Shown here: one piece after another, positions 42,051-44,326 of the stretch
How positions within the stretch are numbered: the stretch's first letter is position 1
Layout: each line of letters opens with the position of its first letter
From: Gymnodinialimonas phycosphaerae
GTDB taxonomy: Bacteria > Pseudomonadota > Alphaproteobacteria > Rhodobacterales > Rhodobacteraceae
Direction: 5' to 3'
Assembly: GCF_019195455.1 (NCBI RefSeq)
Contig: NZ_JAIMBW010000001.1
Location: 3,438,001 to 3,502,000 of the forward strand
Length of the DNA: 64,000 bases
The notes under the pieces: generated by a model
Seen by the model: the letters and a program-made list of their open reading frames with translations, nothing else
Database searches by the model: none
What the model was told of the DNA's origin: nothing
Position numbers and translations under genes: made by a program

Positions 42051-42737
42051 ATGGCAAACCTCAAGAAAATCCTTCTGGTCGATGACGAAGACGACCTGCG
42101 CGAAGCGCTGTCCGAGCAGTTGGTCATGACCGAAGACTTCGATGTGTACGAGGCCGCCAATGGTGCCCAGGCGATGGAACGCGCCAAGGAAGGCATCTAC
42201 GATCTGGTGATCCTCGACGTGGGCCTGCCTGACACCGACGGCCGCGAATTGTGCCGCCTGATGCGCAAACAAGGCGTGAAATGCCCTGTTCTGATGCTCA
42301 CGGGGCACGACAGCGACGCCGACACGATCCTTGGCCTCGACGCTGGCGCCAATGATTACGTCACCAAGCCCTTCCGTTTCCCGGTGCTTCTGGCCCGCAT
42401 CCGCGCACAACTGCGCCAGCATGAGCAGAGTGAAGACGCCGTGTTCCAACTGGGGCCGTATACCTTCAAGCCCGCCATGAAGATGCTGATCACCGAGGAC
42501 GAGCGGAAGATCCGCCTGACCGAGAAAGAGACCAACATCCTCAAGTTCCTCTACCGCGCGCAAGATGGCGTGGTGGCCCGCGATGTGCTGCTTCACGAGG
42601 TTTGGGGCTACAATGCAGGTGTCACGACCCACACGCTGGAAACGCACATTTACCGCTTGCGCCAGAAAATCGAACCAGATCCGTCAAATGCCCGCCTCCT
42701 TGTGACCGAATCCGGAGGCTACAGATTGGTGGCCTAG
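42051..42737 (+). CDS. OmpR-family response regulator
   Basis: A 228-residue regulator: receiver domain with acidic pocket (ILLVDDEDD), phospho-acceptor aspartate in LVILDVGLPDTDG and the conserved lysine in YVTKPF. The C-terminal winged helix (IRLTEKETNILKFLYRAQDG ... THTLETHIYRLRQKIE ... SGGYRLVA) binds DNA. No histidine kinase is adjacent, so it is an orphan in this window. AT-poor spacing to ribA holds the divergent promoter. It is followed at once by the candidate small-RNA pair. Confidence 0.94.
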   Translation: MANLKKILLVDDEDDLREALSEQLVMTEDFDVYEAANGAQAMERAKEGIYDLVILDVGLPDTDGRELCRLMRKQGVKCPVLMLTGHDSDADTILGLDAGANDYVTKPFRFPVLLARIRAQLRQHEQSEDAVFQLGPYTFKPAMKMLITEDERKIRLTEKETNILKFLYRAQDGVVARDVLLHEVWGYNAGVTTHTLETHIYRLRQKIEPDPSNARLLVTESGGYRLVA

Positions 42738-42775
42738 GCGATGGAACCGAATCGATCAGTCCGGCGTTGACTGAA

Positions 42776-42781
42776 AATAAT
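42776..42781 (+). promoter_or_regulatory. possible -10 element of candidate sRNA A
   Basis: AATAAT within TGAAAATAATCC, placed about seven bases before the first stem of candidate A. No clear -35 is seen, so read-through from the response-regulator gene is the alternative. Confidence 0.3.
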
Positions 42782-42786
42782 CCCCC

Positions 42787-42868
42787 GTGCCGGGGCGCCC
42801 AACCTCCCTCGGGCAACGGCACATCCTCCCTGTTGACTGGCCCGGACCTCGTGTCCGGGCTTTTTTTT
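42787..42868 (+). ncRNA. candidate small RNA A with anti-Shine-Dalgarno loop
   Basis: The segment folds as a bipartite hairpin: GTGCCG (42787-42792) pairs with CGGCAC (42817-42822) and GCCC (42797-42800) with GGGC (42811-42814), leaving loop AACCTCCCTC. A second single-stranded CCTCCCT follows (42825-42831), then a strong terminator (42840-42868). C-rich loops of this kind occur in alphaproteobacterial sRNAs such as the R. sphaeroides CcsR/cuckoo type, which pair with ribosome-binding sites. The match in architecture is seen; membership of that family is inferred. Confidence 0.55.
42840..42868 (+). terminator. intrinsic terminator of candidate sRNA A
   Basis: An 8-bp stem GCCCGGAC / GTCCGGGC with loop CTCGT, followed by eight T. 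It may also serve the response-regulator gene. Confidence 0.93.
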
Positions 42869-42885
42869 GGCCAATCAGTCACAAC

Positions 42886-42899
42886 TTGACGTGGATCAA
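42886..42899 (+). promoter_or_regulatory. FNR/FixK-type box upstream of candidate sRNA B
   Basis: TTGAC-GTGG-ATCAA differs from the consensus TTGAT-N4-ATCAA at one base. Its centre (42892.5) is 41.5 bases before 42934, the predicted 5' end of candidate B, the usual position for a class II activator site. Confidence 0.6.
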
Positions 42900-42933
42900 G
42901 TTCACCGTCACCGGCGCGATGTAAGCCTATGCC

Positions 42934-42986
42934 TACAACCTCCCTGTTGTGACTTTGCCCGGCCCTCGTGCCGGGCGTTCTTTTTT
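42934..42986 (+). ncRNA. candidate small RNA B with CTCCCT loop, probably FNR-controlled
   Basis: A compact element of about 53 bases: hairpin ACAAC / GTTGT (42935-42939 and 42946-42950) displaying CTCCCT in a hexaloop, a short linker GACTTT, then a terminator. It repeats the design of element A (shared CCTCCCTGTTG and a CTCGT terminator loop), so the two look like diverged tandem copies. The FNR-type box upstream suggests induction at low oxygen. Nothing in the segment encodes a plausible protein. Confidence 0.55.
42957..42986 (+). terminator. intrinsic terminator of candidate sRNA B
   Basis: A 7-bp stem GCCCGGC / GCCGGGC, loop CCTCGT, then GTTCTTTTTT. Confidence 0.92.
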
Positions 42987-43075
42987 CCGAATAGACCGCT
43001 TCATGGTTCGTGGCCGGGATCGGTTGGCACCATGCGGGCGGCATGCCACACGATCAGTGCAGGGACCGCTCGGCC

Positions 43076-44326
43076 CTATTTCGCCGCCGCCTTCGGAAGC
43101 CTCAGCCGTGCCAAACCATAAACAAACAATGCGACAAACAGGCCGGCGCACAGCAGGAAGACCAGCCGTAACGCGTCTTCTCGGCCCAAGGATGGCTCTG
43201 CCGCAGCCATGATCCAGCCGCCTGCCAACGCGCCAAGCGGCATCATGCCCCAGCCAAAGAAGCGATAGATGGCGTTCACCCGGCCAAGAAGCGCATCGGG
43301 GATGGCCCGCTGTCGGAATGAGACGGTGACGACATTCCACAGGACCGCCACGAAAGTCTCGAGGAACAACAGGCTTGCCGCGACCCAGACAGTGCTGGTG
43401 AAATAGAAGCCAAGGAACGGTAGCGGCATACAGGCCAACGCCACCCACAGACTGCGTGAAGACCCAAGGCGGGCGGCGATCCAGGGGCAAAGCAACCCGC
43501 CCGCCACGCCTCCGGCCGCGCCCGCCGTCAGCAACATGCCAAAGCCCACGGCCCCCAGTCCCAGCACTTCCTGCGCATAGAGTACCAGGACCGTGAACCC
43601 TGCCATGTGCGCGGCGTTAAGTCCGCCCAGGATGAGCGCCAGTTGCAAGATCACGCGATGTTTGCGAATCCATGTCCACCCCGCGCGCATCTCGGTCCAG
43701 AACCCCATGCGGTCCGCAAGAACGCCCCGCGCCGGAAAGGCGATGGCCCAGACAGCAAAGGCGGCCAGCGCAAAGCCCATGGCCTCGAACAGGAAAGGCG
43801 CAGGCACTGCGACGGCAATCAGGAACCCGGCCAGTGGCGGCCCGACGAACTGACCCATGACCTGCTCGACCGACCAGATCTGGCCGTTGGCCTCTTCCAG
43901 CCGCTCCTTGGGCACAACGCTGGGAAGGGCGGTTTGCGCGGCGTTGTCGCGGAAGACCTCGGCTGTGCCCATCAGGAAGGCCAGCGCCGCCAGTCCGCCG
44001 ATCATCCACGCCACATGCCCTCCGTCGCGGGGACCGGCCATGATCAACGCCACCACCGCCATGGCCAATGCCATCCTCGCAAGGTCCGCACGGACCATCA
44101 TGCGCTGGCGATCTGCGCGGTCGGTCCAGACACCCACGGGCAGCGACCACAAGAACCAGGGCAGCCGCGTGGCGAAGGCGACAGCTGCCAAAGCGCGCGG
44201 ATCCGTGGTGATCAACGTGGCCATCCAGGGAAAGGCCAAGACGCCAATGCCATCGGACAGGTTCGAAAGGCCCGCGCCGGACATCAGAAGGCGGAAGTTG
44301 CGATTTTCGCGGATTAGTGCGGGCAT
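43076..44326 (-). CDS. MFS transporter, EntS-like exporter
   Basis: A 416-residue, roughly 12-helix membrane protein. It starts ALIRENRNFRLLMSGAGLSNLSDGI and has the GVWTDRADRQRMMVRADLAR loop after helix 2, the MFS motif A region of the EntS/multidrug-efflux (MFS_3) group, and FRDNAAQTALPSVVPKERLEEANG. Substrate unknown. ATG 44326 has AAGGAG seven bases upstream, which rules out the much longer open frame. Divergent from the hydrolase at 44376. Confidence 0.92.
   Translation of the reverse strand: MPALIRENRNFRLLMSGAGLSNLSDGIGVLAFPWMATLITTDPRALAAVAFATRLPWFLWSLPVGVWTDRADRQRMMVRADLARMALAMAVVALIMAGPRDGGHVAWMIGGLAALAFLMGTAEVFRDNAAQTALPSVVPKERLEEANGQIWSVEQVMGQFVGPPLAGFLIAVAVPAPFLFEAMGFALAAFAVWAIAFPARGVLADRMGFWTEMRAGWTWIRKHRVILQLALILGGLNAAHMAGFTVLVLYAQEVLGLGAVGFGMLLTAGAAGGVAGGLLCPWIAARLGSSRSLWVALACMPLPFLGFYFTSTVWVAASLLFLETFVAVLWNVVTVSFRQRAIPDALLGRVNAIYRFFGWGMMPLGALAGGWIMAAAEPSLGREDALRLVFLLCAGLFVALFVYGLARLRLPKAAAK

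Follow-up and report, generated by a model that had tools for sequence, protein, structure and literature searches.

A candidate FNR-driven, shortened copy of the sRNA SorX downstream of the ompR-1/cenR gene of Gymnodinialimonas phycosphaerae

Introduction

SorX (RSs2461; Rfam RF02784) of R. sphaeroides is reported to be RpoHI/II-dependent and to be co-transcribed with RSP_0847 (PMC5036791, PMC3320616, PMC8307010), its host gene, which is named ompR-1 in the SorX papers (PMC8625941) and CenR later (PMC9275681). The 75-nt RNA is reported to be cut from the 3′ UTR; RNase E makes its mature end, and processing is given as the origin of the mapped pre-SorX 5′ end (PMC6238624). RNase E maturation is reported together with Hfq binding and potA repression (PMC8625941, PMC9438474, PMC6238624, PMC5036791), SorX lowering the translation of potA in R. 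sphaeroides (PMC9438474). FnrL ChIP-seq in the same organism placed a site in the presumed RSs2461 promoter region, without establishing how RSs2461 is regulated (PMC4263372); RSs2461 received the name SorX later (PMC5036791).

Within the accessible literature, which mostly comes without subscription papers and partly as excerpts, we came across no account of an additional SorX copy under FNR control, nor of any follow-up of the FnrL ChIP site at RSs2461. The available text of papers naming both SorX and FnrL yielded no link between the two, and FNR, SorX and ompR are all absent from the main text of a paper on the sRNAs of Paracoccus denitrificans.

Other described sRNAs share single features with element B, the subject of this work. 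The CcsR1-4 or cuckoo RNAs carry a C-rich anti-Shine-Dalgarno-like motif, CCUCCUCCC, in hairpin loops. They are alphaproteobacterial and resemble B in having such a C-rich motif, but their host gene is reported to be ccaF1, not ompR-1 (PMC8625941). FnrS of E. coli, described as an FNR-activated sRNA that represses mRNAs without oxygen (PMC4263372), differs from B in host and locus. PcrZ of R. sphaeroides is an sRNA reported to be under FnrL among other regulators (PMC8307010); its description, with a length of 136 nt and photosynthesis genes as targets (PMC6238624, PMC8307010), sets it apart from B.

Results and Discussion

Two SorX-like elements between convergent genes

The window is a stretch of 64,000 nucleotides of the G. 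phycosphaerae genome (contig NZ_JAIMBW010000001.1, positions 3,438,001 to 3,502,000 of the forward strand), and window coordinates below count from its first base. Between an OmpR-family response regulator gene (+) and a convergent MFS-like transporter gene (−) lie two terminator-ended elements, A and B, with the following features:

42051..42737, + strand: OmpR-family response regulator gene, ortholog of R. sphaeroides RSP_0847 (ompR-1/CenR); open reading frame, the start at 42051 being a chosen one
42767..42780, + strand: degenerate FNR-like site TTGACTGAAAATAA before copy A (8/10 positions, 58 before the core of A)
42801..42866, + strand: element A, SorX-like RNA (RF02784, 44.9 bits, E 9e-10, gathering score 46.6)
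42825..42835, + strand: core CCTCCCTGTTG of A, the same 11 nt as in B and at the R. sphaeroides SorX locus
42839..42861, + strand: terminator stem of A, from the terminator scan
42886..42899, + strand: FNR box TTGACGTGGATCAA (TTGAC-GTGG-ATCAA), centre 42892.5, by direct reading a perfect match to TTGAYN4RTCAA
42922..42927, + strand: presumed −10 TAAGCC at box+36
42934..42986, + strand: element B, predicted FNR-driven SorX-like sRNA of ~53 nt, its 5′ end set by the −41.5 rule
42935..42939, 42940..42945 and 42946..42950, + strand: hairpin of B by direct reading (ACAAC, loop CTCCCT, GTTGT)
42939..42949, + strand: core CCTCCCTGTTG of B, presumed mRNA-pairing, anti-Shine-Dalgarno-like stretch
42956..42986, + strand: intrinsic terminator of B, stem 42956-42977 with 8 pairs (7 GC), then TTCTTTTTT

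A sequence-only reading of this DNA had placed TTGAC-N4-ATCAA 41.5 bases before the predicted 5′ end of an RNA of roughly 53 nt, built of an ACAAC/GTTGT hairpin displaying CTCCCT and a terminator. Both statements hold: adding 41.5 to the box centre gives 42934, and hairpin and terminator are recovered by direct reading and by the terminator scan. Its remark that A and B share design and sequence is likewise borne out, both being SorX-like with an identical 11-nt core. Its suggestion of an undescribed sRNA design has to be given up, as judged by alignment A and B are relatives of the known sRNA SorX.

The upstream gene was followed across relatives with its protein, since a DNA pattern for the response regulator C-terminus matched just 3 of 149 genomes; the protein search returned a single match per genome at E ≤ 1e-60 in 137 of 149 genomes of the family. 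In genome G087 the response regulator is 90% identical to the product of 42051..42737, and the best SorX match starts at 2,598,225. We take G087 to be R. sphaeroides because this coordinate adjoins the published mature SorX 5′ end at 2,598,224 (PMC6238624).

Element A may contain a second small hairpin exposing CCUCCCU (42797-42814, GCCC-AACCTCCCTC-GGGC), of which a close variant, CCCGACCTCCCTCGGG, is present in the A copies of six further genomes of the genus (G002, G005, G007, G008, G009 and G010).

Kinship with SorX

No Rfam match reached the gathering threshold in the window, and SorX surfaced only when the covariance search was run in E-value mode. B then matches at 42913-42983 with 33.7 bits (E 2e-6); like the score of A, this is under the gathering score of 46.6. 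B lies 3′ of the ompR-1/cenR ortholog, as SorX does, and has the same CCUCCCUGUUGGAC core followed by a terminator. The Rfam alignment of B reads CCUCCCUGUUG, one U inserted after GUUG, then GAC; the inserted U is the base that extends the ACAAC/GTTGT hairpin. Unlike SorX, B has a perfect box of its own and no 5′ hairpin, since its predicted transcript begins 5 bases before the core, an outcome that a longer B transcript would alter. Both elements also match other terminator-ended Rfam families weakly, and the SorX model gives sub-cut-off matches in 3 of 14 unrelated control genomes, from which it follows that part of the A and B scores comes from the terminator. The FnrS model, which we take to be part of Rfam, is absent from the 19 Rfam matches at E ≤ 5. 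B as a cuckoo/CcsR RNA was also considered and rejected, as the motif of these RNAs is absent and the loop of B is CUCCCU. The most likely identity of B is a paralogue of SorX that has been shortened and is activated by FNR.

An FNR-type box at class II distance

In a class II FNR promoter the box is centred at −41.5 and the −10 element lies at box+36. Element B presents this architecture, with a perfect box and TA at box+36, the rest of the −10 hexamer being poor. Genus relatives have TATACC, TATGCC or TATAGA at the equivalent position. Scanning 42700-43100 with the sigma-70 consensus gave no promoter. For the 51 nt from 42934 to 42984 the computed folding energy is −20.1 kcal/mol (z −4.8), a value equalled in 0 of 200 shuffles, much of this energy being that of the terminator.

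TTGAYN4RTCAA occurs 31 times in the G. phycosphaerae genome and its reversed control 3 times. From that density, the chance that a 10-bp window ahead of at least one of 5 SorX-type RNAs contains a box is ~4e-4 by simple arithmetic; SorX matches in the genome number 6 rather than 5, which alters the estimate little. The box of B is above chance expectation.

Conservation of box and SorX-type RNA

Box and SorX-type RNA, a pair that the sequence-only reading had proposed to look for in relatives, do recur together. A box followed after 30-48 nt by CCTCCCTGTTG is found in 11 of 394 genomes of the family, G. phycosphaerae included, versus none for the reversed pattern; within the genus, only 4 of 13 genomes have a boxed copy. 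The named genome collection has 54 loci with box, 30-45 nt and core, 47 of them alphaproteobacterial and 7 from outside, as judged by record title. At 44 of these 47 the ompR-1 C-terminus lies at most 1.6 kb upstream, mostly within 0.4 kb; the exceptions are L040 and L082, which have no ompR-1 C-terminus in that range, and L048, which starts at a contig end.

SorX matches at E ≤ 0.01 are present in 380 of the 394 genomes and exceed the cut-off in 311. A first set of loci was chosen blind to the box, as the best 30 plus 80 of the next places among the matches listed (G015, G022, G033, G064 and G232 were passed over), and 108 of these 110 were usable, L096 and L125 being excluded. Among the 108, 36 have a perfect box at most 200 bases upstream, leaving 72 without one, and 45 have a site of at least 9/10 there. 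The controls gave, for perfect boxes (in brackets, at least 9/10), a mean of 0.06 (1.34) after shuffling, 0 (0) for the reversed pattern, 0 (3) downstream and 0 (1) at −500 to −300.

The second set was anchored on the protein and overlaps the first. It covers 130 orthologs out of 137, the remaining seven being close to contig ends or far down the list. Of these loci 125 could be parsed and 5 could not; one SorX-like element was found in 91, two in 8 and none in 26. Between −15 and +205 of the stop codon, 36 of the 125 have a perfect box and 43 a site of at least 9/10, versus 0 (2) at +350 to +570 and 0 (1) for the reversed pattern, in the same notation. The two sets share genomes, and boxes in related genera are non-independent events.

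Most boxes fall into two groups, ~77-94 or ~48-53 bases before the core, with a few between. The longer spacing would give a roughly full-length SorX, the shorter one a short B-like RNA. Though the distance from box to core ranges from 49 to 94, TA stands at box+36/37 in 34 of 42 boxes of at least 9/10; for the short-spacing set the count is 31 of 46 (the window and those 45 of the 54 named loci that were kept). Some boxes overlap the stop codon of the response regulator, for example at L028 and L032. Many short-spacing loci (for example L042, L046, L047, L050, L073 and L078) have CAACC-N3-GGTTG or a near variant between box and −10, an inverted repeat that could serve as a further operator or, in a longer transcript, form its 5′ hairpin.

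Joint conservation of box and hairpin, also raised by the sequence-only reading, stands in part. All 4 members of the genus with a B copy have the hairpin with its CTCCCT loop. Among the 45 named box-bearing loci, CAAC, which pairs with GTTG, precedes CTCCCTGTTG in only 7, so the ACAAC/GTTGT hairpin is a local trait.

Tandem copies

The same reading saw in A and B a duplication in which one copy came under anaerobic control. The tandem pair is real, and in 16 of 16 named tandem loci the upstream copy has no site of at least 9/10; the choice of these loci required the second copy to be boxed and a further core, with or without a terminator, to lie 40-400 bases upstream. Loci L053 and L087, from Rhodobacter kunshanensis and R. 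amnigenus, also contain the A and B pair. Unselected tandems look different. In the protein-anchored set, a site of at least 9/10 precedes 1 of 8 first copies and 3 of 8 second copies, compared with 38 of 91 single copies. A second, overlapping count anchored on SorX found a second core within 240 bases at 8 of 109 loci; none of the 8 has such a site at its best-scoring copy, and one has it at the other copy. First copies are thus rarely boxed, and most unselected second copies are also without a box. Because single-copy SorX genes often have a box upstream, anaerobic control may be something that copy B retained rather than acquired. The degenerate site TTGACTGAAAATAA before A may be a decayed box.

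Readers of the box and rival explanations

G. phycosphaerae encodes FnrL (L345; NF045989, 430 bits, cut-off 300); for FnrL of R. capsulatus the published consensus is (T/C/A)TGA-N6-TCAA (PMC4634722). Given that published consensus, 9/10 sites such as CTGATCCAGATCAA are also plausible. FnrL and box are not significantly linked: 40 of 92 loci in FnrL-positive genomes have a site, versus 2 of 7 loci in FnrL-negative ones (p 0.70, the negatives being few). At the R. sphaeroides SorX locus (L117) the best upstream site is a degenerate one, TTGCGTGAGATCAA, at 8/10 and 109 before the core. TTGCGTGAGATCAA overlaps the ompR-1 stop codon and is a possible source of the FnrL ChIP signal published for RSs2461.

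The box alone cannot discriminate among Crp/Fnr proteins. Were it read mainly by another of them, of the Dnr, FixK or CrpK type, B would answer to nitric oxide or some other signal. Such a reader is a sub-case of the explanation preferred here and compatible with its promoter part. The genome has 16 HTH_Crp_2 matches, 10 of them above the cut-off, and the CrpK and FnrL regulons are reported to overlap in R. sphaeroides (PMC4263372). We nevertheless consider it unlikely, as L345 is the only one of 7 translated Crp/Fnr proteins with a four-cysteine N-terminal cluster and matches FnrL at equivalog level, and the ChIP site published for RSs2461 belongs to FnrL (PMC4263372).

The palindrome could also act as RNA, as a hairpin in the ompR-1 3′ UTR that guides SorX processing, its likeness to an FNR box being incidental. 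This would suit an RNA cut from a 3′ UTR with an end made by RNase E, as reported for R. sphaeroides (PMC6238624), and a 5-bp stem closed by a tetraloop is conceivable for some boxes, such as UUGAU-UCGG-AUCAA in L027. However, the fifth pair would be a non-pairing C/A in 21 of 42 boxes, and it is the distance to the −10-like TA that is nearly constant, unlike that to the RNA core. The box of B moreover lies 3′ of the terminator of A, which sits between it and the ompR-1 transcript. The mismatches and the near-constant −10 distance make an RNA hairpin very improbable. Least credible is that B is a mere backup or bidirectional terminator with its box there by chance: its place between the convergent ompR-1 (+) and transporter (−) genes would allow it, but the pairing is conserved with controls at or near zero, and a terminator needs no CCTCCCTGT core, which nonetheless adjoins a terminator in three further loci of the genome (L332, L334 and L335; see below).

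A probable oxygen-regulated SorX copy

Box, spacing, core, terminator, SorX kinship, conserved pairing and the FnrL gene, all of them read from DNA, point to the same explanation: with good confidence, we hold B to be a second, shortened copy of the SorX gene with an oxygen-regulated promoter of its own. The FnrL ChIP site published for RSs2461 also speaks for it. Points against it are the score of B below the SorX cut-off, the poor −10 with the empty promoter scan, the two thirds of the 108 SorX loci that lack a perfect box, the boxed copy in just 4 of 13 genus genomes, the frequent lack of a box at second copies of unselected tandems, the non-significant link of FnrL and box, the degenerate best site and the processing-derived pre-SorX 5′ end of R. 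sphaeroides, and the target search described below. The short sRNA under FNR-type control proposed by the sequence-only reading thereby gains support from the box, its spacing and the conserved pairing. When oxygen falls, FnrL, or another Crp/Fnr protein reading the same box, would bind 42886-42899 and from its class II position activate RNA polymerase to start at about 42934. The resulting ~53-nt RNA would retain just the SorX core CCUCCCUGUUG and the terminator. Its core would pair with ribosome-binding sites containing ACAGGGAGG and reduce translation, as reported for SorX and potA. Copy A, whose box is not intact, would come from the transcript of ompR-1/cenR, like SorX in R. sphaeroides.

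A wider reading, to which we give about an even chance, is that SorX, known as a singlet-oxygen stress RNA, doubles as an oxygen-switch RNA in much of the Rhodobacteraceae. There it would have an FNR-type promoter of its own, overlapping the response regulator stop codon in a number of genera, and where SorX is duplicated, as in G. phycosphaerae, the inputs would be split, A keeping the stress/host-gene route and B, reduced to core and terminator, the anaerobic one. The locus studied here and the named tandem loci agree with such a split, which is no general rule of duplicated SorX. If true, an oxidative-stress RNA would be tied to the anaerobic switch, and a well-cited sRNA derived from a 3′ UTR would prove to have an independent and conserved promoter of FNR type across much of the family. 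This would also explain the FnrL ChIP site reported in 2014 without a measured effect. The tandem sRNA pair may be a case of two regulatory inputs split between copies.

Possible targets and further SorX-type loci

ACAGGGAGG is not enriched in the G. phycosphaerae genome, with 12 sites versus 18 for the reversed control, and 5 of the 12 are, by eye, antisense to SorX-type RNA genes, namely A, B, L332, L334 and L335. Duplex energies of B with candidate sites, computed with accessibility ignored, are not above background.

L332, L334 and L335 (G000:C1:579066, 931508 and 955004) each combine a CCTCCCTGT core with a terminator, their RNAs lying on the strand opposite to the pattern match. L335 scores 50.3 bits with SorY and 42.5 with SorX, L332 scores 28.9 with SorX and L334 has no match at E ≤ 0.1. 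None of the three is near any of the 31 FNR boxes of the genome.

The 12 sites include L333 (G000:C1:690708, − strand), where CCAACAGGGAGG, complementary to the SorX core, is placed like a ribosome-binding site. Its end is 9 bases from the ATG of a gene for an ABC transporter, and LivG is the best NCBIfam match of that gene (201.7 bits, under the cut-off of 362). In R. sphaeroides, a PotA-family gene at L360 (G087:C4:1027768) has ACAGGGAG just before an in-frame GTG, a possible SorX pairing site.
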